Source: Billgrantia antri (GTDB lineage: Bacteria > Pseudomonadota > Gammaproteobacteria > Pseudomonadales > Halomonadaceae). From it: DNA of 64,000 nt. Positions 5,655 through 32,097 of the stretch are shown here, one piece after another; position 1 is the stretch's first letter, and each line of letters begins with the position of its first letter. The DNA lies in contig NZ_JAHYCA010000010.1 of assembly GCF_019430905.1 (NCBI RefSeq), forward strand, positions 1 to 64,000. The letters are read 5' to 3'. Position numbers and translations under genes: made by a program. The notes under the pieces are model-generated. The model had not been told where the DNA came from, ran no database searches, and saw nothing but the letters and a program-made list of their open reading frames with translations.

Positions 5655-5699
5655 AAAGCCGCCGACGCTTTTCCCCAGCGTCGGCGGCTTTTTCTTTTC
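5655..5699. terminator. Strong intrinsic terminator, same stem as at 3682
   Basis: Arms AAAGCCGCCGACGCT (5655-5669) and AGCGTCGGCGGCTTT (5677-5691) pair perfectly around TTTTCCC and are followed by TTTTTCTTTT on the plus strand. It lies between the 3' end of nirD (minus strand) and the 5' end of the antiporter gene (minus strand). The A-rich left flank provides a shorter U-run for the minus-strand nirD transcript. The core stem CCGCCGACGCT/AGCGTCGGCGG is identical to the hairpin at 3682-3707. Confidence 0.75.
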
Positions 5700-5713: not shown

Positions 5714-6112
5714 TCAGGCCTCGATCCACACCTCGTCGCCCTTGAAGCTCACCTTCCAGGTGCGCAGCCGCACGCTGTCGTCTTCCAGGCACTGGCCGTC
5801 TTCCAGGCGGAAGTGCTGCTTGTAGATCGGCGAGGCGACGACGGGCTGACCCTTGAGGTCGCCGACGATGCCGCGGGCGATGACGTTGGCGTTGGAGAAG
5901 GGGTCATGGTGGTCGATGGCGTAGAGTTCCTGCGCCTGGCCGGTTAGCTGCGACGTGTTCGGGTCGCTTGGAATATAGAAGAGGGCCACCTGGGCGGGGC
6001 CTTCCGGGGTTTCCACCCAGGCGGCGACGCCGGAGAAGGGCACCAGGTCGGCGCGGGTACATACGGTTTGCCAGGTCTGGGTCATGGTCTTGGCCGCAAT
6101 TGCTGAGCTCAT
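5714..6112 (-). CDS. nirD: Assimilatory nitrite reductase, small subunit
   Basis: A 132-residue protein with a Rieske-like fold and none of the Cys/His iron-sulfur ligand pairs, as is normal for NirD. Recognisable parts are WQTVCTRADLVPFSGVAAWVE at the N-terminus, the loop DHHDPFSNANVIARGIVGD near residue 68, and ASPIYKQHFRLEDGQCLED near residue 92. NirD associates with NirB to reduce nitrite to ammonium with NAD(P)H in the cytoplasm. It starts at ATG 6112, 9 bases after GGAG, and lies 75 bases downstream of nirB on the same strand, so nasB-nirB-nirD is read as one transcript ending at the hairpin near 5655. Confidence 0.93.
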   Translation of the reverse strand: MSSAIAAKTMTQTWQTVCTRADLVPFSGVAAWVETPEGPAQVALFYIPSDPNTSQLTGQAQELYAIDHHDPFSNANVIARGIVGDLKGQPVVASPIYKQHFRLEDGQCLEDDSVRLRTWKVSFKGDEVWIEA

Positions 6113-6187: not shown

Positions 6188-8701
6188 TCAAGCCGGCCGC
6201 AACTGGCCGCGCTCGGTGGTGTAAATAATGTCCGGATCCGGGCGCGCGTCGTTGACGAAGCTGCGGAAGCGCTTGAGCTTCTCCGGATCGCTGATGGCGT
6301 TGGCCCATTCGCATTCGTAGGTGTCGACCACGGCCTGCATCTGCCGCTCGAGTTCCTCACCGATGCCGAGGCTGTCCTCGAGGATCACGTCCTTGAGGTA
6401 GTCCAGGCCGCCTTCCAGGTTCTCGCGCCATACCGAGGTGCGCTGCAGGCGGTCGGCGGTGCGGATGTAGAACATCAGGAAGCGGTCGATGTAGCGGAAC
6501 AGCTCCTCGTCGCTGAGGTCGGTGGCGAACAGTTCGGCGTGGCGCGGGCGCATGCCGCCGTTGCCGCATACGTACAGGTTCCAGCCGTTCTCGGTGGCGA
6601 TCACGCCGACGTCCTTGCTCTGGGCTTCGGCGCACTCGCGGGTGCAGCCGGAAACGGCGAACTTGAGCTTATGCGGCGCGCGCAGCCCCTTGTAGCGGTG
6701 CTCCAGCTGGATCGCCATGCCCACGCTGTCCTGCACGCCGTAGCGGCACCAGGTGCTGCCGACGCAGGACTTCACGGTACGGGTCGATTTACCGTAGGCG
6801 TGGCCGGTCTCGAAGCCGGCCTCGATCAGTTCGCCCCAGATCGCCGGCAGGTCCTCCAGGCGGGCGCCGAACAGGTCGATGCGCTGGCCGCCGGTTACCT
6901 TGGTGTAGAGTTCGTACTTCTGCGCCACCTGGCCCAGCACCACCAGCTTGTCGGGGGTGATCTCGCCACCCGGCACGCGGGGAACGACGGAGTAGGTGCC
7001 GTTTTTCTGCATGTTGGCCATGAAGGTGTCGTTGGTATCCTGCAGCGGGATGTGGGCCGCGTCGGTGATCGGCTCGTTGAAGCAGGAGGCGAGTATCGAG
7101 GCCACCGCCGGCTTGCAAATGTCGCAGCCGAGTTTGTGGGTCTCGGGGTTGCCGTGCTTCTCCATCAGCTCGCTGAAGGTCTTGATGCCCTCCACCCGTA
7201 CGATGTCGTAGAGCTCCTGACGGGTATGGGCGAAGTGCTCGCAGATCGACTTATCGACCTCCACGCCGCGGCTCTCGAGTTCGTGATCGACCAGGTTCTT
7301 GAGCAGGGCGGCACAGCCGCCGCAGCCGGTGCTGGCACGGGTCTCGCCCTTCACCGCGCCGAGATCCACGGCGCCGGCGTCGATCGAGGCGCACACGTCG
7401 CCCTTGGTCACGTTGTGGCACGAGCAGATGGTGGCGGTTTCCGGCAGCGCGTCCGGCCCCAGCGCGGGGGCGGCTTCGCCACCGGCCGGCAGGATCAGCG
7501 CAGCCGGGTCCTCGGGCAGCTCGATGCGGTTGGCGTAGTACTGCAGCAGGGTGTCGTAGTAGCTGTTGTCGCCCACCAGCATGGCGCCCACCACGCGCTT
7601 GCCGTCGCTGGAGACCACCAGCTTGCGGTACTGCTGCTTGATGGGGTCGAGGAAGCGGTACTGCCGTGCACCGGGGGTGCGGTCGCCGTGGGCATCGCCG
7701 ATGGAGCCCACGTCGACGCCCATCAGCTTGAGCTTGGTGCTCATGTCGGCGCCGCGGAAGGTCTCGCTGCCTTCGAGGAGCGTAGACGCCGCGACCTTGG
7801 CCATCTGGTAGCCGGGGGCGACCAGGCCGAAGATACTGTTGTTCCACAACGCCACTTCACCGACGGCGAGTATCGCCGGGTCGCTGGTCAGGCAGTTGTC
7901 GTCGATCACCACGCCGCCGCGCTCGCCGATCTCCAGGCCGCTGTCGCGGGCCAACTCGTCGCGGGGGCGAATGCCGGCGGAGAACACGATCAGGTCGGTC
8001 TCCAGCACCTTCTCGTCCTGGAACACCATGCGGTGGCGGCTGGCCTCGCCGTCGACGATCTCCTGGGTGGCGCGGCCGGTGAGTACCTGCACACCCAGCG
8101 CTTCGATCTTCTCGCGCAGCAGCTCGCCACCTTCACTGTCGACCTGCATCGGCATCAGGCGCGGAGCGAACTCCACCACCGCAGTGTCGAGATCGAGCCC
8201 GCGCAGGGCGTTGGCAGCTTCCAGGCCGAGCAGGCCGCCGCCCACCACCACGCCGGTGGTGGCGGTTTCGGCAGCGGCCCGGATGGCATCGAGGTCTTCC
8301 AGGGTGCGGTAGACCAGGCAGCCCTCGCGGTCGTTGCCGGGAATCGGCGGCACGAAGGGGAAGGAGCCGGTGGCCAGCACCAGGCGGTCGTAGGCGTAGC
8401 GGCCCTTCGGCGTGACGACTTCGCCCGCCTCGCGGTCGATGGCGGTCACCGCTTCGTGCAGGCGCAGTTCGATGCCGTGCTCGGCATAGTAATCGGCGGT
8501 GGAGAGCGCCAGCGAGGCGGCATCGCGGCCGCTGAAGTACTCGGAGAGGTGCACGCGGTCGTAGGCCAGGTGGCGCTCCTCGCCGAACACGGTAATGGCG
8601 TAGCGCTCGGTGGCGCCCTGTTCGACCAGTTGCTCGACCAGGTGGTGGCCGACCATGCCGTTGCCGATGACGATCAGTTGCGGTTTCACGGGCGTGTTCA
8701 T
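6188..8701 (-). CDS. nirB: Assimilatory nitrite reductase, large subunit
   Basis: An 837-residue NAD(P)H-dependent nitrite reductase, the usual family length. Domain order: pyridine-nucleotide-disulfide oxidoreductase module (about 1-320; IGNGMVGHH and GGGLLGLEAA nucleotide-binding motifs), a BFD-type [2Fe-2S] domain (about 425-480; CSCHNVTKGD then CGGC) and a second Cys-containing BFD-like repeat (LGCDICKPA, near 530). The sulfite/nitrite reductase hemoprotein halves follow (about 560-800). The siroheme/[4Fe-4S] ligands appear as SCVGSTWC and GCTRECAEA. It catalyses six-electron reduction of nitrite to ammonium in the cytoplasm and needs the siroheme for which cobA in this cluster supplies a step. 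The start codon overlaps the stop of nasB by 4 bases (ATGA), indicating translational coupling. Confidence 0.95.
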   Translation of the reverse strand: MNTPVKPQLIVIGNGMVGHHLVEQLVEQGATERYAITVFGEERHLAYDRVHLSEYFSGRDAASLALSTADYYAEHGIELRLHEAVTAIDREAGEVVTPKGRYAYDRLVLATGSFPFVPPIPGNDREGCLVYRTLEDLDAIRAAAETATTGVVVGGGLLGLEAANALRGLDLDTAVVEFAPRLMPMQVDSEGGELLREKIEALGVQVLTGRATQEIVDGEASRHRMVFQDEKVLETDLIVFSAGIRPRDELARDSGLEIGERGGVVIDDNCLTSDPAILAVGEVALWNNSIFGLVAPGYQMAKVAASTLLEGSETFRGADMSTKLKLMGVDVGSIGDAHGDRTPGARQYRFLDPIKQQYRKLVVSSDGKRVVGAMLVGDNSYYDTLLQYYANRIELPEDPAALILPAGGEAAPALGPDALPETATICSCHNVTKGDVCASIDAGAVDLGAVKGETRASTGCGGCAALLKNLVDHELESRGVEVDKSICEHFAHTRQELYDIVRVEGIKTFSELMEKHGNPETHKLGCDICKPAVASILASCFNEPITDAAHIPLQDTNDTFMANMQKNGTYSVVPRVPGGEITPDKLVVLGQVAQKYELYTKVTGGQRIDLFGARLEDLPAIWGELIEAGFETGHAYGKSTRTVKSCVGSTWCRYGVQDSVGMAIQLEHRYKGLRAPHKLKFAVSGCTRECAEAQSKDVGVIATENGWNLYVCGNGGMRPRHAELFATDLSDEELFRYIDRFLMFYIRTADRLQRTSVWRENLEGGLDYLKDVILEDSLGIGEELERQMQAVVDTYECEWANAISDPEKLKRFRSFVNDARPDPDIIYTTERGQLRPA

Positions 8702-10008
8702 GCGGCCTCCTTTGCGGGGCGTTGCGGTGATTCGTTCAGGGCGTCGTCGAGCAGGACCTGGGCGTCGGCGGCACCGAGCAGCAGCGCGGTGCGGCAGGCG
8801 GTGAGGTCGACCCCGGCCAGGGCCTGCTCGAAGTACCAGGGGCCGGAGGCGGTGTCGCCGTAGAGCACGGCGCCCTCCAGGCGGCCGCCTCTGAGCAGCA
8901 GGCGGCGGTAGTCACCCTGCTGGGGATCGCGGTAGCTGAGCACCTCGTGGTCGGGCTCGGGCTCGGTGGGCCCGAAGGCGTAGAGCGCCACACCGCTGAC
9001 CTTGAGCTTGGTGGCGGTAGGCGCTTCGACGTACCCGGTGCTGGGCTTGCCACAGAGGCAATCGGCCAGCACTTCGACCTGGCGCCAGATCGGCTCGACC
9101 AGGCCGTAGAGGTTGCCGCGGTGCTCGCAGCATTCGCCGAGGGCGTGGATCGCCGGGTCGGAAGTGGTCAGCCACTCGTCGACGATCACGCCACGCTGAG
9201 TGTCGAGCTCGGCGGCGCGGGCCAGCGCGGTATTGGGCACGATGCCGATGGCCACCACCACGCAGTCGGCGGCGAGCCGGGTGCCGTCGGCGAGCCGGGC
9301 GGCGCACACGCGGCCGTCGCTGCCGGCTTCCAGGCTTTCGAGCTGGGCGTCGGTGTGAATGTCGAGCCCACGGCCGCGCAGCTCGCTTTCCAGCAGGCGG
9401 GCGGCGGTGAGATCGAGCTGACGGTTCATCAAGCGGTCGTCGCGCTGCAGCAGGCTCACCTGCATGCCGCGCTTGCCCTGTCCACGTTTACGTAAGCCTT
9501 CCGCCGCCTCCAGGCCGAGCAGGCCGCCGCCGATCACCACGGCGCTGCCGCCTTGCGCGGCGGCACGAGCCAGGGCGTCGGCGTCGTGCAGGTCGCGGAA
9601 CACGTGCACGCCGGGAAGTTCGAGCCCCGGCACCGGCGGGCGAGCCGGGTTCGAACCGGTGGCCAGCACCAGGCGGTCGTAGTCGAGCGTGCGGCCGGCG
9701 TCGGTGGTAAGCGTGCGGGCGTCGCGGTCGATGGCCTCGACCCGCTCGCCGAGGATGAGCTCGATGTCCTGCTCGGCGTACCACTCGGCGCTGCGCAGGG
9801 TCAGGGCCTCGCGCTGCATCTCGCCGGCCAGCAGCGGGGAGAGCAGGATGCGGTTGTAGGCCGGCGCGGTTTCGGCGCCGATCACGGTGATCCTGGCGGG
9901 GCGCTCGGGCCGGGCGAGGAGCGCCTCGACCAGCCGATGGCCGGCCATGCCGTTGCCGACGATGACCAGGTGCTCGACGGTGGATGTCTCGGGATGTCGC
10001 CGTGGCAT
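8698..10008 (-). CDS. nasB: Assimilatory nitrate reductase electron-transfer subunit (NasB-like FAD/NAD(P)H oxidoreductase)
   Basis: A 436-residue FAD-dependent oxidoreductase related to the N-terminal third of NirB: IVGNGMAGHRLVEALL binds FAD, VVIGGGLLGLEAAEGLR binds NAD(P)H, and ALGECCEHRGNLYGL is near residue 290. It lacks the iron-sulfur and siroheme domains of NirB. In nas clusters such a flavoprotein is the proposed electron donor to NasA, consistent with NasA here ending in a BFD-type [2Fe-2S] domain. The start is ATG 10008 because GGAGG stands seven bases upstream and the protein then begins at its FAD fold. The open frame extends further upstream but crosses the leader hairpins. It is first gene of nasB-nirB-nirD. 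Confidence 0.85.
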   Translation of the reverse strand: MPRRHPETSTVEHLVIVGNGMAGHRLVEALLARPERPARITVIGAETAPAYNRILLSPLLAGEMQREALTLRSAEWYAEQDIELILGERVEAIDRDARTLTTDAGRTLDYDRLVLATGSNPARPPVPGLELPGVHVFRDLHDADALARAAAQGGSAVVIGGGLLGLEAAEGLRKRGQGKRGMQVSLLQRDDRLMNRQLDLTAARLLESELRGRGLDIHTDAQLESLEAGSDGRVCAARLADGTRLAADCVVVAIGIVPNTALARAAELDTQRGVIVDEWLTTSDPAIHALGECCEHRGNLYGLVEPIWRQVEVLADCLCGKPSTGYVEAPTATKLKVSGVALYAFGPTEPEPDHEVLSYRDPQQGDYRRLLLRGGRLEGAVLYGDTASGPWYFEQALAGVDLTACRTALLLGAADAQVLLDDALNESPQRPAKEAA

Positions 10009-10056: not shown

Positions 10057-10156
10057 CAACGACGCCTCGGCGCTTCCCCTGTCGATTCGATGATCGAACC
10101 GGGGAGCACAGAGACGTCGTTGTCGCTTTCCTTGTGGGCGATCGCCTTTGATCGCC
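10057..10156 (-). promoter_or_regulatory. NasT (ANTAR) antitermination leader of nasB-nirB-nirD
   Basis: Read on the minus strand, the leader first forms GGCGATC-AAAGGC-GATCGCC (10156-10137): a perfect 7-base stem with a 6-base loop having A at position 1 and G at position 4. About 13 bases later a second hairpin has loop AACGAC (10121-10116) on a GAC/GTC stem, again A1 and G4. The second loop lies inside CAACGACG (10122-10115), which can instead pair with CGTCGTTG at 10064-10057 to close a large terminator-like stem. Paired six-base loops with A1/G4, the second overlapping a terminator arm, are the described target of ANTAR antiterminators such as NasR and NasT. The terminator stem has no strong U-run, so its strength needs testing. 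Confidence 0.75.
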
Positions 10157-10172
10157 GCTCTGTCCTGCAAGT

Positions 10173-10188
10173 ATCAAGATTCCGGCCA
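10173..10188 (-). promoter_or_regulatory. Probable sigma54 promoter of nasB (degenerate -12)
   Basis: On the minus strand TGGCCG-N5-TTGAT matches the sigma54 consensus TGGCAC-N5-TTGC except that the -12 GC is GA. Its predicted transcript start near 10163 falls 7 bases before the first leader hairpin, the same geometry as the better elements before nasA and nirC. On sequence alone the call would be weak; position supports it. Confidence 0.45.
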
Positions 10189-10289: not shown

Positions 10290-10304
10290 GCACATCAGTG
10301 GTGC
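10290..10304 (-). promoter_or_regulatory. Candidate NtrC binding site upstream of nasB
   Basis: GCAC-N7-GTGC (GCACATCAGTGGTGC) has the outer half-sites of the NtrC consensus GCACYANNNTRGTGC but differs in two inner positions. It lies about 100-115 bases upstream of the probable sigma54 element, a normal enhancer distance and nearly the same as for the nasA site. It overlaps the last codons of nasS. Confidence 0.4.
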
Positions 10305-11335
10305 GTTGCGGCATCGAAATGCACAGGGCTGTAGCACGCTGCCAGCAGCGCCGGATCGAAGCGGCTGCCCTCGGCTTCCAGCTGGCGCACGATGGGTTGG
10401 GCGAAGTGCAGGGCGGCCTGCGGCGTCGGGCGCAGCATGTCCGCGCCGTAGAGATGCTGGTGGATGGGGGCCGTATTGCTGTCGAGCGTAGCGAGGTGGC
10501 GAATCGAACGGTCGAGGTAGGGCGGCAGGGCCAGCCACTCACGTGCCTGGCGGCGATGATCCGGCGAGGCGGCCAGCCAATCGCTGGCTGCTACCAGGGC
10601 ACGCAGCAGGGCGGCCAGGGTGGCCGGGTAGCGCTGCGCCCAGGAGCGGGTCATGCCGAGTACCTTCTCCGGATGGTCGTGCCACAGCTGGGCGCCGGTG
10701 GCGACCAGCCGGCCCACGCCGCAGTGGCGGGCCAGGGTGCCCCAGGGTTCGCCGGCGCAGAAGCCGTCGATCTGGCCGTCGCGCAGGGCTTCCACCATGC
10801 GCGGCGGCGGCAGGGCGACCAGCTCGACGTCGCGGTCGGGGGCGATGTCGCCCAGGGTGAGCCATTCGCGCAGTTGGTAGTGCTGGCAGGAATAGGGATA
10901 CACCATGGCCAGGCGCGGGCGCCTGCCGCTGCCCGCTCCGCGCAGCCAGTTGCCCAGCGCCAGGGCGCTGTCGGCCGGGTCGCTGCCGAGCGTGGCACCG
11001 CTGGCCTGGCACAGCGATGCGGAGAGCGTAACGGTGTTGCCGTTGCGCGAGAGCAGCAGCGGTGCCAGCGTCTCGCAGGGGGCGCGGCCCAGCCCCAGGC
11101 TCATGGCCAGCGGCATGGGGGCGAGCATCTGGGCGCCGTCGAGCAGGCCGGCGGCGACCTTGTCGCGCAGGGTGGCCCAGGCGTTTTCCCGCGACAGGCT
11201 GACGTCCAGCCCCTGGGCGGCGAAGCAGCCGCGTTCGCGGGCGACGATCAGCAGAGCAGCATCGAGCAGCGGTACGAAGCCGAGGGTGAGGCGCTCGAGT
11301 TCGGGGCTGGCGGCGTGGTGTTGCGGTTGACTCAT
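10295..11335 (-). CDS. nasS: Nitrate/nitrite sensor NasS
   Basis: A 346-residue protein of the nitrate-binding NrtA/SsuA periplasmic-protein fold (ERLTLGFVPLLDAALLIVARERG at the N-terminus, MLAPMPLAMSLG near 75, DGFCAGEPWGTLA near 210), but with no signal peptide, so it acts in the cytoplasm. NasS proteins hold the antiterminator NasT inactive and release it when they bind nitrate or nitrite. The start is ATG 11335, which overlaps the nasT stop by 4 bases (ATGA), so the two are translationally coupled as expected for a stoichiometric pair. The frame open upstream of this ATG belongs to the shadow of nasT. It lies between the nasB leader and nasT. Confidence 0.88.
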   Translation of the reverse strand: MSQPQHHAASPELERLTLGFVPLLDAALLIVARERGCFAAQGLDVSLSRENAWATLRDKVAAGLLDGAQMLAPMPLAMSLGLGRAPCETLAPLLLSRNGNTVTLSASLCQASGATLGSDPADSALALGNWLRGAGSGRRPRLAMVYPYSCQHYQLREWLTLGDIAPDRDVELVALPPPRMVEALRDGQIDGFCAGEPWGTLARHCGVGRLVATGAQLWHDHPEKVLGMTRSWAQRYPATLAALLRALVAASDWLAASPDHRRQAREWLALPPYLDRSIRHLATLDSNTAPIHQHLYGADMLRPTPQAALHFAQPIVRQLEAEGSRFDPALLAACYSPVHFDAATHH

Positions 11336-11970
11336 GAGCGGGTTCCCCGTTTGTCGTCGGCGTGCCCTTCGGGCGATAGCGGGTTCAGGCGGGCGAGAAT
11401 GTCGATGACGCTGTCGGCGACCTCGGCGATGCGCTGGCCGCGGTCCATGGCGAGCTTGCGCAGCATGCGGTAGGCCTGCTCCTCGTCGCAGCCCTGATGC
11501 TTCATCAACAGGCCCTTGGCGCGCTCGATGCACTTGCGCTCGGCCAGTTGGTTGCGGGCCTTGTCGAGTTCCTGGCGCATGCTGTGAAAGGCGTCGAAGC
11601 GGGCGATGGCGACCTCGACGATGGCCTTGACCCGCTCGGGCACCAGGCCATCGACGACATAAGCGCTGACCCCTGCCTTGAGCGCGGCCTGCAGCATGTC
11701 GGAGTCGTGCTGGTCGGCAAAGAACACCACCGGACGCGGGTTCTCCCGGTTGAGCAGCGCCATGCTCTCCAGCGTGTCGCGGTCGGGGCTCTCCATGTCG
11801 ATGATTACCACGTCGGGCTGGTGGCGCCCGACCATCTCGTTGAGGCTGGCCGGGTTCGAGAGCCGGCAGATGACCCGGTGTCCCTCGGCCATCAGCGCTT
11901 CCTCGACCATGGCGGCACGTACCACCTCGTCGTCGACCAGCAGAATGTTCAGGGGGGGTGGTGATGGCAT
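11332..11970 (-). CDS. nasT: Nitrate-responsive antiterminator NasT (REC-ANTAR)
   Basis: A 212-residue response-regulator-like protein. Residues about 8-125 are a receiver fold (LLVDDE, then DVVIIDMESPD with the aspartate position occupied), and about 130-195 are an ANTAR RNA-binding domain (LAERKCIERAKGLLMKHQGCDEEQAYRMLRKLAMDRG). NasT binds paired six-base-loop hairpins in nas/nir leaders and prevents termination; NasS inhibits it without nitrate. Four leaders in this window carry such loops (nasB, nasA, nirC, narK). The start is ATG 11970, where the receiver fold begins; the ribosome site is weak. It is divergent from nasA across a 402-base gap holding the nasA promoter and leader. Confidence 0.92.
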   Translation of the reverse strand: MPSPPPLNILLVDDEVVRAAMVEEALMAEGHRVICRLSNPASLNEMVGRHQPDVVIIDMESPDRDTLESMALLNRENPRPVVFFADQHDSDMLQAALKAGVSAYVVDGLVPERVKAIVEVAIARFDAFHSMRQELDKARNQLAERKCIERAKGLLMKHQGCDEEQAYRMLRKLAMDRGQRIAEVADSVIDILARLNPLSPEGHADDKRGTRS

Positions 11971-12222: not shown

Positions 12223-12238
12223 TGGCACGCTTTCTGCT
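12223..12238 (+). promoter_or_regulatory. Sigma54 promoter of nasA
   Basis: TGGCAC-N5-CTGCT carries GG and GC exactly ten bases apart, matching the -24/-12 consensus TGGCAC-N5-TTGCW with one mismatch. The predicted transcript start near 12249 is 13 bases before the first leader hairpin. Together with the upstream NtrC-like dyad this predicts nitrogen-limitation control. Confidence 0.75.
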
Positions 12239-12261
12239 TGATACATGTCAATACCTCTACC

Positions 12262-12340
12262 GGGGCGCCATGCGGTGCCCCACGCGGCAACGACGCCCGC
12301 CAACCGCCTCCCTCATGGGACCGGCCGTTGGCGGGCGTCG
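12262..12340 (+). promoter_or_regulatory. NasT antitermination leader of nasA
   Basis: The first hairpin GGGGCGCC/GGTGCCCC (12262-12281) closes on ATGC; if the last pair is open its six-base loop is CATGCG, with G4 but not A1. A second small hairpin has loop AACGAC (12289-12294) on a GGC/GCC stem, fitting A1/G4. This loop merges into the left arm of a perfect 14-base stem, CGACGCCCGCCAAC (12291-12304) with GTTGGCGGGCGTCG (12327-12340), which must be broken for the small hairpin to form. That mutual exclusion is the ANTAR antitermination arrangement. The large stem is followed only by TCGTTTCG, so it lacks a classical U-run. The nasA start codon is 33 bases downstream. Confidence 0.75.
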
Positions 12341-12372
12341 TCGTTTCGCGAGGAACCCGACAGGAGATCGAC

Positions 12373-15132
12373 ATGCGCGAGGCCCGAACCACTTGCCCCT
12401 ACTGCGGCGTCGGCTGTGGCGTGCTGGCCGGCGTCGAGGACGAGCGGATCGTCGAGGTGCAGGGCGACCCCGAGCACCCGGCCAACTTCGGCCGGCTGTG
12501 CGTGAAAGGGTCGGCGCTGCACGAGACGCTGGGACACGGCGGCCGGCTGACAAGACCCAGGGTAGATGGCGTCGAGACGGACTGGGACACGGCGCTCGGC
12601 GCAGTGGCCGAACGGCTCACGGCGGTGCGCGACAGCCACGGCGCGCAGGCAGTCGCCGCCTACCTTTCCGGCCAGCTGCTCACCGAGGACTATTACGTCG
12701 CCAACAAGCTGTTCAAGGGCTTTCTCGGCACGCCGCACCTGGATACCAATTCACGGCTGTGCATGGCCTCGGCGGTGGCGGCGCACAAGCGCGCCTTCGG
12801 CGCCGATGCCGTACCGTGCAGCTACGAGGATCTCGAGGAGGCCGAGCTGGTGGTGCTGGTGGGCTCCAACCTGGCCTGGAACCACCCGGTGCTCTACCAG
12901 CGGCTGAAGGTGGCCAAACAGCGCAACCCGCTGCTGCGGGTGGTGGTGATCGACCCGCGGGTGACCGATACCTGCGAAATCGCCGATCTCTACCTGGGGC
13001 TCGAGCCGGGCAGCGATGCGCGCCTGTTCACCGGATTGCTGGCGTGGATGGCAGCGCACGACAAGCTCGACCGGGTCTACTTGGAGGCGCATGCTCAGGG
13101 CTACGAGGAGGCGCTTGCCGCGGCGCGGGAGCAGGATGCCGCTGTGGAAGCCATCGCCGCCGACTGCGATGTCGATGCCGAGCGCCTGGAGACCTTCTTC
13201 TACTGGTTCGCCAGTCACCTGCACGTGGTCACCCTGTTCTCCCAGGGGGTCAACCAATCGAGCAGCGGCACCGACAAGGGCAATGCCATCATCAACTGCC
13301 ACCTGGCGGGCGGCAAGATCGGCCTGCCGGGCGCCGGACCGTTCTCGATCACCGGCCAGCCCAACGCCATGGGTGGGCGCGAGGTGGGCGGGCTGGCCAA
13401 TCAGCTGGCTGCCCACATGGACTACGACACGCCCGGCGCGCGGGACCGGGTCACGCGCTTCTGGGCCACCGAGCGGCTGGTGCCGTGCCTGCCCGAGGCG
13501 CCCGGCCACAAGGCGGTGGCGCTGTTCGAGGCGATCGAGCGCGGCGAGATACAGGCGCTATGGATCATGGCCACCAATCCGGCGGTGAGCCTGCCGCGGG
13601 CCGACCGGGTGCGCGAGGCACTGGCGAAGTGCCCGCTGGTGATCGTCTCCGAGTGCATGGCCAACGCCGACCTGCTGCCCTATGCCGACATCGTGCTGCC
13701 GGCCTCGAGCTGGTCGGAGAAGGACGGCACCGTGACCAACTCGGAGCGTCGCATCTCGCGCCAGCGCGGTATCCTGCCGCCGCCGGGAGAGGCGCGGCAC
13801 GACTGGTGGATCGTCTGCCAGGTGGCCAGGCGGCTGGGCTTCGGCGAGGCCTTCGCCTATACCCATCCGTGCGAGATCTTCGACGAGCATGCCCGGCTCT
13901 CCGGATTCGAGAACGGTGAGCGCTCGGGGGAGAGCCGCCGGCTGTTCGATATCTCCGGCCTGGCCGGGCTCGACCGCGCCGCCTACGACGCCTTGGCGCC
14001 GATCCAGTGGCCGGTCAATGCCGCTGCTCCCCATGGCACCGCCCGGCTGTTCACCGATGGCCGCTTCGCCACGCCGGATGGTCGCGCTCGAATGCTGCCG
14101 GTGCGTCCGCGCCCGCCGGCCCAGGCGCTCGACGCGGCCCGCCCGCTGCGGCTCAATACCGGGCGCGTGCGCGATCAGTGGCACACCATGACCCGCACCG
14201 GTCGGGCGCCGCGGCTGATGAATCACCGCGCCGAGCCGTTCATCGAGCTCACCCCGGAAGACGCCGCCGCACTTGGCGTGGAAGAGCATGGCCTGGCACG
14301 CCTGGCGGGCGCGGGCGGAGAGTATATCGGCCGGGTGCGGCTATCGCGCGGGCAGCGCCGCGGCGAGGTGTTCGTGCCGATGCACTGGAGCGGCCACTTC
14401 AGTGCCACGGCGCGCATGGGGGCGCTGCTCGAGGCGCATCTCGATCCGCTCTCCGGCCAGCCGGAATCGAAGCACGGCGCGGTGGCGCTGGCGCCGTTGC
14501 AACCCGCTTGGGAGGCCACCCTGCTGGTAGCCGACGATCTGGAAGTGGCGGAGTCGAGCTGGTGCGACGAGAGCCGCTACTGGGCGCGAATTCCGCTGCA
14601 CGGCTGCCAGCGCTGGCAGCTGGCCGGCGGTGAGTCGCCCGGGGGTGAAAAGGAAGCACCGCGTGACTGGCTGACCTGGCTCGAGGCGTCGCTGCCGGTG
14701 GCGCCAACGCTGTGGTGCACCGACCCCGCCAGCGGACGGCTGCGCGCTGCCGGGGTGGATGCCGCGGGCCGCCTGCGCTGGTGGCTGATGGTGGGGGCGC
14801 CGGTGGAGCTGCCCAACCTGAGCTGGCTCGATGCCCGCTTCGAGGAGGCCGGCGCTGGCACGGGGCTATCGGCGCAGCATCGCCGCCGCCTGCTGGCCGG
14901 CTGCGACGACGGCGCCGCCAACCAGGGGCCGGTAGTGTGTAGCTGCCATCAGGTGGGTCAACGCGCTATCCTAGAGGCGATCCGTGAAGGCGACGACAGC
15001 GTCGAGGCGCTGGGCGCCAGGCTGGCCTGCGGCACCCAATGCGGAAGTTGCGTTCCCGAGCTGAAATCGTTGATCGAAGAGGAGAAGGCGCATGCGAGCG
15101 CTGAGCCAATTGAAGTCACTGCTGTCGCCTGA
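12373..15132 (+). CDS. nasA: Assimilatory nitrate reductase, catalytic subunit
   Basis: A 919-residue molybdenum bis-MGD enzyme reducing nitrate to nitrite in the cytoplasm. It opens with the [4Fe-4S] motif CPYCGVGCG-x(n)-RLCVKG. The molybdopterin oxidoreductase domain fills about 60-560 (SSSGTDKGNAIINCHLAGGKIG, GPFSITGQPNAMGGREVG), and a dinucleotide-binding domain lies at about 600-720 (LNTGRVRDQWHTMTRTG). A C-terminal BFD-type [2Fe-2S] domain (CSCHQVGQRA then CGTQCGSC, about 855-905) is typical of the NasA class fed by a flavoprotein such as NasB. The start is ATG 12373, seven bases after AGGAG; the frame open to 12238 crosses the leader hairpins and is not coding. The 3' end overlaps cobA by 41 bases. 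Confidence 0.95.
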   Translation: MREARTTCPYCGVGCGVLAGVEDERIVEVQGDPEHPANFGRLCVKGSALHETLGHGGRLTRPRVDGVETDWDTALGAVAERLTAVRDSHGAQAVAAYLSGQLLTEDYYVANKLFKGFLGTPHLDTNSRLCMASAVAAHKRAFGADAVPCSYEDLEEAELVVLVGSNLAWNHPVLYQRLKVAKQRNPLLRVVVIDPRVTDTCEIADLYLGLEPGSDARLFTGLLAWMAAHDKLDRVYLEAHAQGYEEALAAAREQDAAVEAIAADCDVDAERLETFFYWFASHLHVVTLFSQGVNQSSSGTDKGNAIINCHLAGGKIGLPGAGPFSITGQPNAMGGREVGGLANQLAAHMDYDTPGARDRVTRFWATERLVPCLPEAPGHKAVALFEAIERGEIQALWIMATNPAVSLPRADRVREALAKCPLVIVSECMANADLLPYADIVLPASSWSEKDGTVTNSERRISRQRGILPPPGEARHDWWIVCQVARRLGFGEAFAYTHPCEIFDEHARLSGFENGERSGESRRLFDISGLAGLDRAAYDALAPIQWPVNAAAPHGTARLFTDGRFATPDGRARMLPVRPRPPAQALDAARPLRLNTGRVRDQWHTMTRTGRAPRLMNHRAEPFIELTPEDAAALGVEEHGLARLAGAGGEYIGRVRLSRGQRRGEVFVPMHWSGHFSATARMGALLEAHLDPLSGQPESKHGAVALAPLQPAWEATLLVADDLEVAESSWCDESRYWARIPLHGCQRWQLAGGESPGGEKEAPRDWLTWLEASLPVAPTLWCTDPASGRLRAAGVDAAGRLRWWLMVGAPVELPNLSWLDARFEEAGAGTGLSAQHRRRLLAGCDDGAANQGPVVCSCHQVGQRAILEAIREGDDSVEALGARLACGTQCGSCVPELKSLIEEEKAHASAEPIEVTAVA

Positions 15133-16210: not shown

Positions 16211-16226
16211 TGGCACGCCACGTGCT
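16211..16226 (+). promoter_or_regulatory. Sigma54 promoter of nirC
   Basis: TGGCACGCCACGTGCT has TGGCAC at -24 and TGC at -12, with GG and GC ten bases apart. The predicted start near 16237 is just before the first leader hairpin at 16241. A partial NtrC-like dyad (GCACCA-AGG-CTGGGC, 16054-16068) lies about 145 bases upstream, further than for nasA and weaker. Confidence 0.72.
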
Positions 16227-16240
16227 TGTTCTTGGGCAGG

Positions 16241-16360
16241 GCCTGCTGCATGCGCAGGCTGGCCGGCAGGATCAACGACGATCGCCGCCGGCCTTGGCCC
16301 CATGACAACGCGACGAATACAGGCAAGGGCGCCTGAAGCTGCACGCCGGCTTCAGGCGCC
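16241..16360 (+). promoter_or_regulatory. NasT antitermination leader of nirC
   Basis: First hairpin GCCTGC/GCAGGC (16241-16259) with loop TGCATGC, again containing CATGC as in the nasA leader. The second element is GATC-AACGAC-GATC (16270-16283), a four-base stem with an AACGAC loop (A1, G4), nested inside GGCCGGC/GCCGGCC arms. Downstream a strong terminator-like stem GGCGCCTGAAGC (16328-16339) with GCTTCAGGCGCC (16349-16360) is followed by TTTGCG. Order and loop match the nasA and nasB leaders, so NasT control of this unit is predicted. The ATG is 57 bases after the last stem. Confidence 0.72.
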
Positions 16361-16416
16361 TTTGCGTTCGTCACCTCAGACACGAGACGAGAGGCGCCAA
16401 GCGCGTAGAGAACACT

Positions 16417-17226
16417 ATGTCCTATCTGCTTCCTTCGGAATTCGCGACAAAGATGGTCGACGCCGGCGAGTCCAAGCTCCACATGGCCACGCGGGACGTC
16501 CTGATTCGCGCCTTCATGGCAGGCGCCATCCTGGCACTGGCCGCGGTATTCGCGGTGACCATCACGGTGCAGACCGGTATGCCGATCCTCGGGGCTGCGC
16601 TGTTCCCGGTCGGCTTCTGCATGCTCTATCTGATGGGCTTCGACCTGCTGACCGGGGTGTTCGTGCTCACCCCGCTGGCCTGGCTCGACCGGCGCCCCGG
16701 CGTCACCATCGAGAGAATCCTTATCCACTGGGGCAAGGTCTTCTGCGGCAACCTGGGTGGCGCCCTGACCGTGGCGGTGCTGATGGCGATCGTCTTCACC
16801 TACGGCTTCGCCACGCCGCCGGACGAGGTGGGGCAGAAGATCGCTGGAATCGGCCATGCCCGCACCGTGGGTTACAAGGAGTTCGGCGCGGCGGGCATGC
16901 TGACCATCCTGATTCGCGGCATCCTGTGCAACTGGATGGTCTCGCTCGGCGTGGTCGGGGCGATGATCTCGACTACGGTGGGCGGCAAGGTGATCGCCAT
17001 GTGGATGCCGATCATGGTGTTCTTCTTCATGGGCTTCGAGCACTCCATCGTCAACATGTTCCTGTTCCCGTCGGCGCTGATGATGGGCGGCGACTTCTCG
17101 ATTGCGGATTACCTGATCTGGAACGAGATCCCCGTGGTGGTGGGCAATCTGATCGGCGGGCTCTCGCTGACCGGCCTGACGCTGTATGCCACCCATGTGC
17201 GCACCGCGCCGCTGCGTGACATCTGA
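16417..17226 (+). CDS. nirC: Formate/nitrite transporter family channel, NirC-like
   Basis: A 269-residue inner-membrane protein of the FNT family, close to the family's usual length, with six hydrophobic segments. Typical stretches are AFMAGAILALAAVFAVTI (TM1), LGAALFPVGFCMLYLMGFDLLTG (TM2), HWGKVFCGNLGGALTVAVLMA (TM3), LIRGILCNWMVSLGVVGAMIS (TM4), WMPIMVFFFMGFEHSIVNMFLFP (TM5) and VVVGNLIGGL (TM6). The FEHSIVNMF segment contains the channel histidine of FocA/NirC. Nitrite rather than formate is the likely substrate because the gene lies in the nitrate-assimilation cluster behind a NasT-type leader; the sequence alone does not settle it. A kinase gene follows after one base. Confidence 0.85.
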   Translation: MSYLLPSEFATKMVDAGESKLHMATRDVLIRAFMAGAILALAAVFAVTITVQTGMPILGAALFPVGFCMLYLMGFDLLTGVFVLTPLAWLDRRPGVTIERILIHWGKVFCGNLGGALTVAVLMAIVFTYGFATPPDEVGQKIAGIGHARTVGYKEFGAAGMLTILIRGILCNWMVSLGVVGAMISTTVGGKVIAMWMPIMVFFFMGFEHSIVNMFLFPSALMMGGDFSIADYLIWNEIPVVVGNLIGGLSLTGLTLYATHVRTAPLRDI

Positions 17227-17227
17227 G

Positions 17228-18961
17228 ATGTCGGCGTTCGAACCCGGCAACTCGTTGCGGGTCTCGCTGGGCCAGTGCTCGAAGGCGGGGCGCAAGGCGG
17301 TCAACCAGGACTTCCACGGCGCCTACGTGCCGCGTGAGCCGCAGTTGTCGAGCAAGGGTGTCGTGGTGGCGCTGGCCGATGGCATCAGCACCAGCGCGGT
17401 GAGCAGGGTCGCCAGCGAAACGGCGGTCAGGAGCTTCATCGAGGACTACTACTGTACCGCCGAGAGCTGGACGGTGAAGACCGCAGCACAGCGGGTGCTG
17501 ATGGCGACCAACGCCTGGCTGCATGCCCAGACCCGGCGCAGCGAGTATCGCTGGGACAAGGACCGCGGCTACGTCTGTACCTTCACCGCGCTGGTGCTGA
17601 AGTCGCGCACTGCGCATGTCTTCCATGTCGGCGATGCGCGGCTCTACCGCCTGCAGGACGACAACCTCGAGCCGCTGACCCGCGAGCACCGCGCCTGGCT
17701 GGAACCCGACAGGTGCTACCTCAGCCGGGCAATAGGCATCGGCGAGCAGCTCGAGATCGACTACCTGGCGCTGCCCGTCGAGGCGGGGGACGGCTTCCTG
17801 CTGGTGACCGACGGCGTATACGAGCACCTGAGCGAAGCGCGCATGCGTCAGCTCCTGGCCGAGCACGAGGCAGACCTGGACGCCGCCGCTCGCGCCCTGG
17901 TGCATGCGGCCTTCGAGGCGGGCAGCGACGACAACCTCACGGCGCAGGTGGTGAGGGTGGAAGAGGTGCCGCTGGGTGATGCCCGCGAAGCCTGGTCGGG
18001 GGAGGCGGAACTGCCGTTTCCGCCGCAGCTCGAACCGAGAATGTGCTTGGACGGCTATCGGGTCGTGCGCCATCTCCACGCCAGCGCCCGCAGCCACGCC
18101 TACCTGGCCGTGGACGAGGAGACCTCGCACAAGGTGGTCATCAAGACCCTGGCGACCGAGCTGCGCGAGGATCCGCGACACGTGGAGCGGTTCCTGCTCG
18201 AGGAATGGATCGCCCAGCGCATCGACAACCCCCACGTGGTCAAGGCGCACCGGCCGGGGCGCCGACGCCGCTATCTCTACAGCGTGACGGAGTACATCGA
18301 GGGCCGCACATTGGCCCAGTGGCTGCGCGACCAGCCGCGGCTGGAGCTGGAGACGGTACGCAGGCTGGTCGAGCAGATTGCCCGCGGCCTGCGCGCCTTC
18401 CATCGCCTCGAGATGGTGCATCAGGACCTTCGGCCGCACAACGTCATGGTCGACGCCACGGGCCACGTTACCCTGATCGACTTCGGCTCGGTACGCGTGG
18501 CGGGAATCACCGAAAGCCGGCCGGAGCAGGCGGAAGAGCCGCTGGGTACGGCCTCCTACACGGCGCCGGAGTGTTTCCTCGGCGAGCCGGCCACGCCACG
18601 CTCGGACCTGTACTCGCTGGCCGTGATTGCCTACCAGGCGCTCACCGGAACGCTGCCCTACGGCACCGAGGTGGCTAAGGCGCGCAACCGTGCGGCGCAG
18701 CACCGCCTCGTGTACCGCTCGGCGCTTTCGGCCAACCGCGAGCTGCCTGCCTGGGTCGACGAGGTGCTGAGGAAGGCGCTGCACCCTCAGCCCACACGGC
18801 GCTTCGAGGCTCTCTCCGAGCTGGTCCACGAACTGCGCCAGCCCAGTCCCGTATTCCTGAAAAAGTCCCGCCCACCGCTGATCGAGCGAAACCCCGTGCT
18901 GTTCTGGAAAGGCGTGGCCGCGCTACTTTCGCTGCTAGTGCTCGTGCTGCTGCTCGAGTGA
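17228..18961 (+). CDS. Fused PP2C-type protein phosphatase / Ser-Thr protein kinase, membrane-anchored
   Basis: A 577-residue two-domain regulator. Residues about 10-235 are a PP2C phosphatase (NQDFHG, LADGIST, HVGDARLYRL, LVTDGVYEHL, GSDDNLTAQVV), with the metal-binding aspartates present. Residues about 268-530 are a eukaryotic-type kinase: VVIKTL lysine, HQDLRPHNVM catalytic loop, LIDFGS, and APE (YTAPECF). The glycine-rich loop is degenerate (HLHASARSHAYLA). Residues about 558-575 form one membrane helix at the C-terminus. The start ATG 17228 is one base after the nirC stop, so it shares the nirC transcript. Similar phosphatase-kinase genes beside nitrate-assimilation genes are known in Pseudomonas; target and purpose are not established. 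Confidence 0.85.
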   Translation: MSAFEPGNSLRVSLGQCSKAGRKAVNQDFHGAYVPREPQLSSKGVVVALADGISTSAVSRVASETAVRSFIEDYYCTAESWTVKTAAQRVLMATNAWLHAQTRRSEYRWDKDRGYVCTFTALVLKSRTAHVFHVGDARLYRLQDDNLEPLTREHRAWLEPDRCYLSRAIGIGEQLEIDYLALPVEAGDGFLLVTDGVYEHLSEARMRQLLAEHEADLDAAARALVHAAFEAGSDDNLTAQVVRVEEVPLGDAREAWSGEAELPFPPQLEPRMCLDGYRVVRHLHASARSHAYLAVDEETSHKVVIKTLATELREDPRHVERFLLEEWIAQRIDNPHVVKAHRPGRRRRYLYSVTEYIEGRTLAQWLRDQPRLELETVRRLVEQIARGLRAFHRLEMVHQDLRPHNVMVDATGHVTLIDFGSVRVAGITESRPEQAEEPLGTASYTAPECFLGEPATPRSDLYSLAVIAYQALTGTLPYGTEVAKARNRAAQHRLVYRSALSANRELPAWVDEVLRKALHPQPTRRFEALSELVHELRQPSPVFLKKSRPPLIERNPVLFWKGVAALLSLLVLVLLLE

Positions 18962-20105: not shown

Positions 20106-20326
20106 TCAGGCATTGCCCTCTGGGGAGCCGTCGCTCCCCTGGCGTCGACTCCTGGCATTCTGAATGGCGGCCTCGCGCACGGCCTGCTGCACGATCACGC
20201 GCAGCTCGTCGTCGTCCCAGGGCTTGGTGAGGAACTTGTAGATTCCTCCCTCGTTGACGGCCGTGGTGATGGTCTGGAGGTCGGTATAGCCCGACAGGAG
20301 GATTTGCAGGGTTTGCGGGTAGAGAG
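20106..20326 (-). other. Out-of-frame 3' part of the c-di-GMP gene's receiver domain
   Basis: Reading the minus strand two bases out of the upstream frame from about 20322 gives YPQTLQILLSGYTDLQT, then NEGGIYKFLTKPWDDDELR and a short tail ending TGA at 20106-20108. This is exactly the second half of a response-regulator receiver domain, including the conserved lysine (LTKPW). The upstream frame supplies the first half. The junction is a (CT)3 repeat (AGAGAG at 20321-20326 on the plus strand); removing one CT unit joins the halves as VKALYPQTLQILLSGY. Confidence 0.85.
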
Positions 20327-22627: not shown

Positions 22628-23951
22628 CGGCTTCTTCCTCCCGGTAGACCAGCAGGGTGTAGCGCGTATTCTCGGCGTCCTCGAGCCGGATCAGCTTGTC
22701 GATCAGGTGTGTATCGAGCCGCTTGCCTTCGTGCAGCAGCATGCCGCTGGTGGAGTGAATATCCTCGGCCAGGACCATGCCGGGCTCGAGCTTGCGCGTT
22801 TCCAGGGCCAGCACCGGCCGACCTTGACTTTCGAGGTCCGGCGCCTTGTCGCGGCACAGCGTGACGAAAGCCTGGCACAGGCTCGGGTCATAGACGCGTC
22901 CGGCAAACTTTTGTAGCAGCTCCAGCGCCTGGGGGCGCATGACCTGGCGCGGCAGGATCATGCCGCGCTGCAGCTCGATGAAATCGACGGCGAGCCCGAG
23001 CAGGCGGGAACCAAGGGGAATGGCCTCGCCCTTGAGACGGTCGGGAAATCCGCTGCCGTTCCAGCGTTCACGGTGGTGACGGATGATTTTTGCCGCTCCC
23101 TCCATGTGCTCCAGCGCCATCAGCAGGTTTTCGCCTGTGGCCGGATAAAGACGGTAACTCTCGCGTTGCTGAACCGAGAGCCGTTCGGCGGGCGTGGCGA
23201 GCAGGCGGTCGTTCCAGGCCAGCTTGCCCAGGTTGTAGAGGGCAGCCGCCAACTGCAGGTCATGCTGCTGTGCTTCGTCGAGACCAAGCTCCTTGGCGAA
23301 GGCCTGGACCAGGACGCCAACCTTGGCATTGGTCTGGAAGCGTGGCGGAAGGCGCTGGTTGATCAGCGACGAGAAGACTTTGGTGGCCGTCACGTAGCTC
23401 TTGCGCAGTTCGCGGAAGGCGACCTCCAGCATGTCGGCAGTCTGCTTGAGCTCTTGAGTGCGCGCCTCGACACGCTGTTCCAGCGAGGCGTTGAGCTCGG
23501 CGAGCTCCCGGTTCTGATCCTGCGTCAGCGCTTCGAGGCGCTTCTGTTCGCGTTCAGTATGTTGATACTGGAGTGCCTGGCGCAGGGTGAGGCGCAGCCC
23601 TTCGTCGTCCCAGGGTTTGGACAGGTAGCCGTAGATGCGGCCCTCATTGATGGCGCGGTCGGTGGCGGCCAGGTCGCACTGACCGGTCAGCAGCAGACGC
23701 AGACACTCCGGCCACTGCTGCTGTACGCGGGACAGCAGTTCGACCCCATCCATGCCCGGCATCATGGCGTCGCTAAGCACCAGGTCGATAGGCTCGCGTT
23801 CGAGTATCGCCAGGGCCGCATGGCCATCCCCGGCGGTATGAAGGACGTATCCCTCATGACGCAGCATGCGTGACAAGGCGGAGAGCACGTTGGGTTCGTC
23901 GTCGACCAGTAGCACACTGGCGGGTACGGCTTGTTGTGCCACGTCTTCCAT
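22620..23951 (-). CDS. Response regulator with a degenerate HD-GYP domain
   Basis: A 443-residue protein. Residues about 12-125 are a receiver domain (LLVDDEPN, DLVLSDAMMPGMDG with the phospho-acceptor Asp, LSKPWDD with the Lys). About 130-180 is a coiled coil (NRELAELNASLEQRVEARTQELKQ). About 185-380 corresponds to an HD-GYP domain. The catalytic HD pair is replaced: where active members read HDIGK this protein reads YNLGK, and GYP is GFP in HHRERWNGSGFPDRLKGEAIP. It is therefore probably a c-di-GMP-binding or signalling protein rather than a phosphodiesterase. ATG 23951 follows GGGAGG by six bases. It is the first gene of a two-gene unit with the PAS-GGDEF-EAL protein. Confidence 0.85.
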   Translation of the reverse strand: MEDVAQQAVPASVLLVDDEPNVLSALSRMLRHEGYVLHTAGDGHAALAILEREPIDLVLSDAMMPGMDGVELLSRVQQQWPECLRLLLTGQCDLAATDRAINEGRIYGYLSKPWDDEGLRLTLRQALQYQHTEREQKRLEALTQDQNRELAELNASLEQRVEARTQELKQTADMLEVAFRELRKSYVTATKVFSSLINQRLPPRFQTNAKVGVLVQAFAKELGLDEAQQHDLQLAAALYNLGKLAWNDRLLATPAERLSVQQRESYRLYPATGENLLMALEHMEGAAKIIRHHRERWNGSGFPDRLKGEAIPLGSRLLGLAVDFIELQRGMILPRQVMRPQALELLQKFAGRVYDPSLCQAFVTLCRDKAPDLESQGRPVLALETRKLEPGMVLAEDIHSTSGMLLHEGKRLDTHLIDKLIRLEDAENTRYTLLVYREEEADE

Positions 23952-26254: not shown

Positions 26255-26308
26255 GTGCAACTCCTGGGCAGGCTCGGGTTCACCTCCAGCATAGCTGCTG
26301 TAGAGAGC

Positions 26309-32054: not shown

Positions 32055-32097
32055 GCGCCTGGCCGGGTTTGCGGAACCCGGCCAGGCGCCGTTTTTT
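32055..32097 (+). terminator. Intrinsic terminator of the TAXI-TRAP/AtuA operon
   Basis: Arms GCGCCTGGCCGGGTT (32055-32069) and AACCCGGCCAGGCGC (32075-32089) pair perfectly across a 5-base loop and are followed by six T residues (32092-32097). It lies 25 bases after the last stop codon. The convergent narK gene ends at 32158. Confidence 0.9.

Follow-up and report, generated by a model that had tools for sequence, protein, structure and literature searches.

A probable NasS-NasT antitermination leader before nasB-nirBD in Billgrantia antri and its likeness to the narK RNA family

The nasB-nirBD operon of Billgrantia antri is very probably preceded by an antitermination leader of a known kind, controlled by NasS and NasT. 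What goes beyond the known kind is the probable identity of this leader with the Rfam narK RNA, its apparent membership in a cluster of three leaders and its departures from textbook form. In the 64,000 nucleotides of DNA that we analysed (called the window below), the operon and its neighbours are arranged as follows.

5714-6112, minus strand: nirD, nitrite reductase small subunit (Pfam; NCBIfam TIGR02378 over cut-off)
6188-8701, minus strand: nirB, nitrite reductase large subunit (Pfam; NCBIfam over cut-off)
8698-10008, minus strand: nasB, FAD/NAD(P)H reductase component, the first gene after the leader (Pfam; named by context)
10295-11335, minus strand: nasS, NMT1_2/NrtA-like sensor (PF13379; named by context), its start overlapping the nasT stop (ATGA)
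11332-11970, minus strand: nasT, response-regulator and ANTAR domains, 212 aa (PF00072 and PF03861)
12373-15132, plus strand: narB/nasA-type gene, taken as assimilatory nitrate reductase (molybdopterin oxidoreductase by Pfam; named by context)
16417-17226, plus strand: FNT, formate/nitrite transporter (Pfam PF01226 over cut-off; NCBIfam TIGR00790 below cut-off)

The genes nasB, nasS, nasT and narB were named from their Pfam domains and their context, and no NCBIfam model scored over its cut-off for these four among the matches listed; the NasC model gave the nitrate reductase protein 429.9 bits, below the cut-off of 1100. The divergent side carries the genes for the nitrate reductase, a uroporphyrinogen methyltransferase and FNT. 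On the nasB side the genes of a REC-ANTAR protein and of an NrtA-like sensor stand together beside nas genes, which is the gene arrangement of a NasS-NasT pair. The sequence-only reading had nasT encoded 1.3 kb from the leader; the gene is indeed nearby, with nasS in between, at a distance of 1.14 kb from position 10188. The nearest solved relatives of NasT by sequence are Rv1626, EutV and NasR, and no ANTAR protein besides NasT was detected in the genome, by a search that found such a protein in 0 of 14 control genomes and thus had no positive control. Further along the window we noted an open frame for a fusion of a PP2C phosphatase and a protein kinase (17186-18961, plus strand), which begins inside the end of the FNT gene; a gene for a PAS-GGDEF-EAL protein with a C-terminal receiver domain (20195-22627, minus strand), which adjoins the gene of an HD-domain response regulator (22620-23951); and a gene for a histone-deacetylase-family protein (25139-26260, minus strand), which adjoins that of a LysR-type regulator.

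Between nasS and nasB, which starts at 10008, the minus strand carries the nasB leader, and the stretch under study (10057-10188) is limited by an arm of a stop-type hairpin at one end and a sigma54-like element at the other. Read in the direction of transcription, its elements are:

10188-10173, minus strand: sigma54-type -24/-12 element, TGGCCGGAATCTTGAT, with GG-N10-GA where the consensus has GC
10156-10137, minus strand: P1 hairpin, GGCGATC-AAAGGC-GATCGCC, 7 bp, hexaloop AAAGGC with A1 and G4
10125-10136, minus strand: linker between P1 and P2, 12 nt
10124-10113, minus strand: P2 hairpin, the putative antiterminator, GAC-AACGAC-GTC, 3 bp, hexaloop AACGAC with A1 and G4
10057-10122, minus strand: competing stop-type hairpin, 66 nt, which includes the P2 loop and 3' arm and is followed by CGTTATAGG

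It had been claimed that twin six-base-loop hairpins with A1 and G4 in both loops stand here and that the second loop can pair downstream instead. Both claims hold: the hairpins are present in the minus-strand letters, are kept in relatives and covary (see below), and in the stop hairpin every base of the 5' arm, CAACGACGTCTC (10122-10111), has its complement in the 3' arm, GAGGCGTCGTTG (10068-10057). This 5' arm holds the whole second loop, so that P2 and the stop hairpin are mutually exclusive. The leader has what characterizes ANTAR dual-hexaloop targets, namely two hairpins of at least 3 bp joined by a linker, A1 and G4 in both loops, and a P2 that excludes the stop hairpin. Folded alone, P1, P2 and the stop hairpin have energies of -11.1, -0.7 and -42.0 kcal/mol, respectively, from which we take the stop hairpin to be the default fold. 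A leader stretch of 216 nt folds 4.1 sd better than shuffles (z -4.1).

By stem and loop rules alone, twin hexaloops arose on average 1.04 times per 64-kb shuffle (both strands) and at least once in 64 of 100 shuffles. A second pair of A1/G4 hexaloops by such simple rules stands in the window at 41595 on the plus strand; it has no complement to loop 2 and was taken as chance. When an 8-base complement between loop 2 and the downstream sequence was added to the rules, none of the 100 shuffles qualified, and in the window only the nasB site did. Twin hexaloops by simple rules are not rare by chance; it is the comparison across 51 leaders that settles the reality of the structure. The set consists of the window and 50 Halomonadaceae loci that were picked by their nasB protein and not by their leader (54 loci were found in this way, of which L082-L085 were left out). 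Both hairpins were present in all 51 nasB leaders, in 46 by script and in five by pattern, with a single P1-stem mismatch. Throughout the 51-row alignment (45 distinct rows) the C-G closing pairs of both hairpins, A1 of loop 1 and G4 of both loops are invariant; position 1 of loop 2 is A in 48 rows and G in three (L037, L044 and L079), where the loop reads GAAGAC or GAAGGC and G4 is kept. Loop 2 is also often GAAGAC in further genomes of the window's genus, and A1 therefore appears less strict in loop 2 than in loop 1.

Changes on both sides were seen in 12 of the 16 base pairs tested, among them five of seven in P1 and two of four in P2, and 91.1% of alignment cells pair; neither value was reached by any of 500 shuffles, and the count of pair types was reached by five of the 500. 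When the partner was slid along the alignment, pairing fell to 34-63%. The same alignment bears on whether the inverted repeats could be DNA operators, or P1 a protein site on DNA, as the perfect palindrome GGCGATC/GATCGCC might suggest. Alignment pair 7-18, however, is G-U in 25 of the 45 distinct rows, and G-U pairs preserve pairing in RNA but break a DNA palindrome; with the six-base loops also kept and P2 and the stop hairpin mutually exclusive, we find an operator hardly credible. The commonness of G-U pairs in the P1 stem points to RNA.

From the nasB leaders a covariance model (R1) was built, whose unfiltered scan over the window gave a second match just before FNT (16263-16335; 22.5 bits, E 3.8e-4 for the window) and a weak one before the nitrate reductase gene (12261-12298; 12.7 bits, E 0.11). 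Related leaders appear, from their letters, to precede the FNT gene and, with a non-canonical P1, the nitrate reductase gene:

12223-12238, plus strand: sigma54-type element of the narB leader, TGGCACGCTTTCTGCT, GG-N10-GC
12262-12281, plus strand: P1-like hairpin of the narB leader, with loop CATGCG, or tetraloop ATGC if C1 and G6 pair, and not an A1/G4 hexaloop
12286-12297, plus strand: P2 of the narB leader, GGC-AACGAC-GCC
12289-12341, plus strand: stop-type hairpin of the narB leader, -44.1 kcal/mol, no U-run
16211-16226, plus strand: sigma54-type element of the FNT leader, TGGCACGCCACGTGCT, GG-N10-GC
16261-16293, plus strand: P1 of the FNT leader, hexaloop AACGAC
16320-16335, plus strand: P2 of the FNT leader, CAGGC-AAGGGC-GCCTG
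16324-16364, plus strand: stop-type hairpin of the FNT leader, which includes loop 2, -33.0 kcal/mol, followed by CGTTCGTC, no U-run

The stop hairpins of these two leaders include all or most of loop 2. Read by eye, P2 and a stop hairpin occur in 13 of the 30 fetched FNT loci and are absent from 17. At those loci of related genera where FNT directly follows the methyltransferase gene (L152-L163), no dual-hexaloop leader like that of the window (16211-16371, plus strand) was seen by eye. All 45 narB leaders that we looked at, several of them identical, have P2 (44 by script and L135 by eye). Their P1 is a strong stem, whose loop in most members of the window's genus measures 4, 5, 7 or 8 nt. 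A script that assigned the wrong P1 in six leaders (L118, L121, L123, L128, L034 and L035) found an A1/G4 hexaloop in six of the 45, and the addition of L128 and L135 by eye makes eight; some more distant relatives have one. With P1 mostly lacking an A1/G4 hexaloop and P2 kept, we regard the narB leader (12223-12372, plus strand) as a one-hexaloop variant. In the genome to which the window belongs, a filtered R1 scan gave 20 further matches at E<=10 besides the nasB leader, and the four that were inspected (L087-L090) read as chance, with no twin hairpin and stop hairpin. The filtered scan missed the FNT leader, so that additional leaders may exist elsewhere in the genome.

The sigma54 elements of the FNT and narB leaders are perfect and of the TGGCAC type. 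Among relatives, the pattern TGGY-N8-YG[CA] stands before P1 in 50 of 51 nasB leaders (shuffled mean 1.4), 34 of 35 distinct narB leaders (shuffled mean 3.0) and 8 of 11 FNT leaders (shuffled mean 1.5; 11 of 13 leaders were counted, L169 and L172 being left out). The element before nasB predicts a transcription start near 10162, about 6 nt before P1. This element also weighs on the possibility that the long hairpin is a plain end-of-operon terminator of nasTS, which its start on the nasS strand, 173 nt past the stop of that gene, would allow: the sigma54-like element lies in between, and one relative (G010) has the leader though its nasB and narB diverge 0.76 kb apart and its ANTAR gene, encoding NasR, lies 32 kb away. 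We therefore consider a nasTS terminator very improbable.

Among relatives of the window the regulator itself varies. In several related genera no ANTAR gene adjoins nasB and the protein present is a NIT-ANTAR one, which is NasR, and some have both; the NIT domain was confirmed in 10 of 10 Pfam-scanned proteins, drawn from 13 long ones extracted, seven short ones lying outside the scan. Within one family (L175-L194) we observed NasT beside nasB, NasR several to tens of kb off, a REC-ANTAR protein elsewhere, or NasT together with NasR. Regulator and leader architecture were compared in the genomes of 89 relatives, with the regulator class assigned by hand from frame length and distance; 66 were parsed, and the 23 that were not comprise seven with a REC-ANTAR protein elsewhere, nine NasR-only, four untyped and three NasT-adjacent genomes, in several of which a leader is visible by eye. 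At least six positions of loop 2 are paired outward in 34 of 47 NasT-adjacent leaders versus 1 of 14 NasR-only ones (10 of the 14 have three), and the linker is at most 17 nt long in 34 of 47 versus 3 of 14, counts that include ten leaders that look misparsed, five of them (G015, G074, G105, G163 and G175) checked in the leader sequences. The link between regulator type and leader architecture appears to be a correlation and is confounded with phylogeny.

According to the accessible text of PMC3369931, eut leaders, the targets of EutV, have linkers of 5-12 nt and a linker of 14 nt reduces induction; that of PMC8934654 reports that an extension of the linker by 20 nt abolishes antitermination. 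The 12-nt linker of the nasB leader falls inside the eut range given in the former (PMC3369931), which supports an ANTAR-type reading. Long linkers of relatives, about 19-49 nt, mostly contain a small third hairpin (L046-L081). In 32 of 36 leaders this hairpin reduces the unpaired part to 3-10 nt, and in L043, L051, L058 and L074 the unpaired part is 14-21 nt. Better folding than the mean of their own shuffles was seen in 28 of 32 distinct long linkers, 13 of the 32 at p<0.05.

The sequence-only reading had called the leader 'textbook', which is an overstatement, as no U-run stands after its stop hairpin. A U-run was found after the stop hairpin in none of the three window leaders (nasB, FNT and narB), so that the U-run directly after the hairpin by which a canonical intrinsic terminator is recognized is lacking, and terminator scans do not call the nasB stop hairpin. 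The same window has terminator-like sites with T-runs at 5655-5691 and 32055-32089, such sites being hardly commoner than in shuffles, and for this reason we withhold the name of canonical intrinsic terminator from the stop hairpin. Outside the Billgrantia group, each of the 35 named leaders has a T-run of at least 5 after P2, whereas the longest such run measures 2-4 in the window and its nine nearest named relatives and 2-7 in six intermediate leaders. Among parsed leaders of the 89-genome set it measures 2-4 in ten of the same subclade; of the others, 25 of 37 of NasT type and 11 of 14 of NasR type have at least 5. Leaders of the window's subclade have GTTGCGTT in place of the run, and the GTTG in it forms pairs with loop 2 and the base that closes this loop.

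The missing U-runs in the window, and the short T-runs of its subclade compared with distant relatives, would be expected if the leader were a NasT target whose off-state is not intrinsic termination, the hairpin pausing polymerase for Rho or another factor or acting on the finished RNA. The accessible text of Ramesh et al. (PMC3369931), in which a terminator was called in only about 30% of ANTAR-target matches, would also agree with this. Nonetheless, we regard such an off-state as rather unlikely: the hairpin is very stable (-42 kcal/mol) and its 3' flank partly U-rich (GUUGCGUUAU), seven T follow the stem in the relative L044, whose loop pairing is designed alike, and a ribosome site about 35 nt downstream does not pair with the stop hairpin in the fold. 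Covariation between loop 2 and the stop arm is modest. In a test with registers set without using the loop, several of them visibly wrong, NasT genomes had 88 of 132 cells paired in their nasB leaders, where shuffles averaged 80.4 (8 of 1000 reached the observed count), and no significant covariation was found in the NasR, FNT and narB groups (reached by 110, 242 and 130 of 1000 shuffles, respectively). The extended loop-2 pairing is exact in the window and near relatives, which reflects sequence identity within the clade more than covariation. One automated parse of the leaders left out L045 and misplaced P2 in L038, L069 and L081 (nasB), L169-L171 (FNT) and about ten narB leaders.

At Rfam gathering thresholds the window has no match. 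A permissive search matched the nasB leader (10187-10111) to narK RNA (RF03032), a cis-regulatory family, over positions 1-72 of 72, with a score of 36.8 bits (E 1.4e-5) that does not reach the gathering value of 43.2. Two more matches of this search were rejected as chance, one to gabT RNA, located on the stop hairpin, with E 0.19 and 22.3 bits, and one to Yar_3, with E 0.3 and 13.8 bits. Among 20 loci of relatives, four pass RF03032, namely the nasB leaders L032 (48.6) and L038 (45.8) and two leaders of MFS genes (79.5 and 74.7), and 16 score below it, including all NasR-type, FNT and narB ones. The Rfam model starts with GGCaCA-N4-UUGCU, which is the sigma54 element, and the element before nasB coincides with this conserved 5' part; the model pairs P1 only and leaves the P2 sequence, CGACAAAGACGUCG, unpaired. 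Across 293 genomes of the order, a passing narK RNA occurs in 12, a match at E<=0.01 in 27 and an ANTAR protein in 130. An ANTAR gene is present in all 12 genomes with a passing copy (G020 included; hypergeometric 4e-5) and in 26 of the 27 (G407 being without; 2e-9), both values uncorrected for relatedness and several matches in the 15 sub-threshold genomes looking like chance. In each of the 12 a narK RNA lies at most 2.2 kb from the ANTAR gene (a sub-threshold copy in G260, G385 and G461). In every one of the 15 passing copies the P2 hexaloop is closed by C-G and contains G4; A1 is present in 13, and 14 are followed downstream by a run of at least four T, L284 having three.

R1 gave 20 matches at E<=0.01 in 18 of the 293 genomes. 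Outside the family, eight of 13 precede genes for MFS transporters (five) or nirB-like, FNT and NrtA-like proteins, one of each kind being confirmed by Pfam; the other five and one inside the family (L106-L110 and L112; E 0.0016-0.009) look like chance. Nitrate may be the cargo of the MFS protein. A search of the window's own genome with a Pseudomonas-like MFS protein gave two MFS-type matches of 29% identity, one of which was scanned and carries PF07690. Our literature search found no paper on narK RNA, the founding description of the family being outside its reach. From these comparisons narK RNA is probably a NasT target. More fully, we think it likely that RF03032 is a NasT-bound dual-hexaloop leader, of which the conserved 5' third would be sigma54 promoter DNA and not RNA structure, the modelled helix P1, and the 'unpaired' 3' part the P2 antiterminator. 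Within the Halomonadaceae this leader would have been reshaped: the NasT stop hairpin would have grown to include the whole second hexaloop, with loss of the U-run in the window's subclade; genera with NasR would retain the U-run, together with a longer linker that a third hairpin bridges; and the nitrate reductase leader would keep one canonical hexaloop only.

In general, nas genes are known to be under dual control by nitrogen limitation, through sigma54, and by nitrate, through NasT. In the scheme that we propose for nasB-nirBD, nitrogen limitation would start transcription about 6 nt ahead of P1, from the predicted sigma54 promoter. As long as nitrate is absent, NasS would hold NasT and the 3-bp P2 would yield to the much stronger hairpin 10057-10122, ending or blocking transcription before nasB. 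Nitrate or nitrite would free NasT, which would bind the P1 and P2 hexaloops as they emerge from polymerase and keep P2 folded, withholding the 5' arm of the stop hairpin, so that nasB-nirBD is made. Release from NasS, RNA binding and read-through are inferred by analogy with Paracoccus NasS-NasT and EutV.

We favour control by NasT because of the covarying twin hairpins, the stop hairpin that overlaps P2 and the sigma54 element; because NasT adjoins the leader and is the only ANTAR protein detected; because distant leaders (35 of 35 outside the Billgrantia group) have their T-run at the same place; because eight of the 13 R1 matches outside the family stand before the transport and nitrite reductase genes listed above; because of the narK RNA match and the same design before FNT and, in part, before narB; and because Paracoccus NasT binds its nasA leader RNA, as stated in the accessible part of PMC3795266. 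Against it stand the lack of a U-run in the three window leaders and of a terminator call, the weakness of P2 alone (-0.7 kcal/mol), a window copy below the Rfam gathering score and the modest loop-2/stop-arm covariation. The earlier suggestion of an ANTAR-type target that NasT would bind is supported by the hexaloops with their invariant closing pairs, the 12-nt linker, the overlap of P2 with the stop hairpin, the single detected ANTAR protein and the sub-threshold narK RNA match.

Judged by the accessible text of PMC3369931 and PMC8934654, ANTAR dual-hexaloop leaders (EutV/eutP, NasR/nasF and AmiR/amiE) likewise have two short hairpins with A1/G4 hexaloops and conserved closing pairs, and have in common with the nasB leader a 12-nt linker and a second hairpin that overlaps the stop hairpin; in contrast to them, the window's stop hairpin includes all of loop 2 and has no U-run after it. 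The leaders could test whether termination occurs without a U-run when the stop hairpin includes the protein's recognition loop. Two features bear on the EutV model: the narB leader is a natural test of whether both hexaloops are needed, and the long linkers with a third hairpin are one of how strict linker length is. In NasR systems the RNA target is of the same kind and the ANTAR protein, in several related genera, is NIT-ANTAR, whereas the window's genome has NasT, and NasR-only leaders mostly have longer linkers and a T-run. The nirBD leader of Pseudomonas aeruginosa is reportedly, from work of Romeo in 2012, subject to NasS-NasT antitermination. Nitrate/nitrite antitermination by NasS-NasT is described, in the parts of the sources at hand, for the Paracoccus nasA leader, where nitrate dissociates NasS-NasT and NasT binds the leader RNA (PMC3795266), and for Bradyrhizobium nos/nas leaders (PMC6759348). 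These systems likewise have nasT-nasS beside the operon, the same kind of target gene and a leader before the first gene; the window's cluster differs, as far as those parts go, in having three separate leaders, of which that of narB is without a canonical first hexaloop, and three leaders of a single Halomonas-type nitrate cluster would thereby come under the control of NasT. As for Rfam RF03032, its full-length match covers the sigma54 element, P1 and the P2 sequence of the nasB leader, with the differences that the window copy is sub-threshold and that the Rfam model pairs P1 only; a curated RNA family with only a gene name would hereby be tied to a concrete protein and signal.
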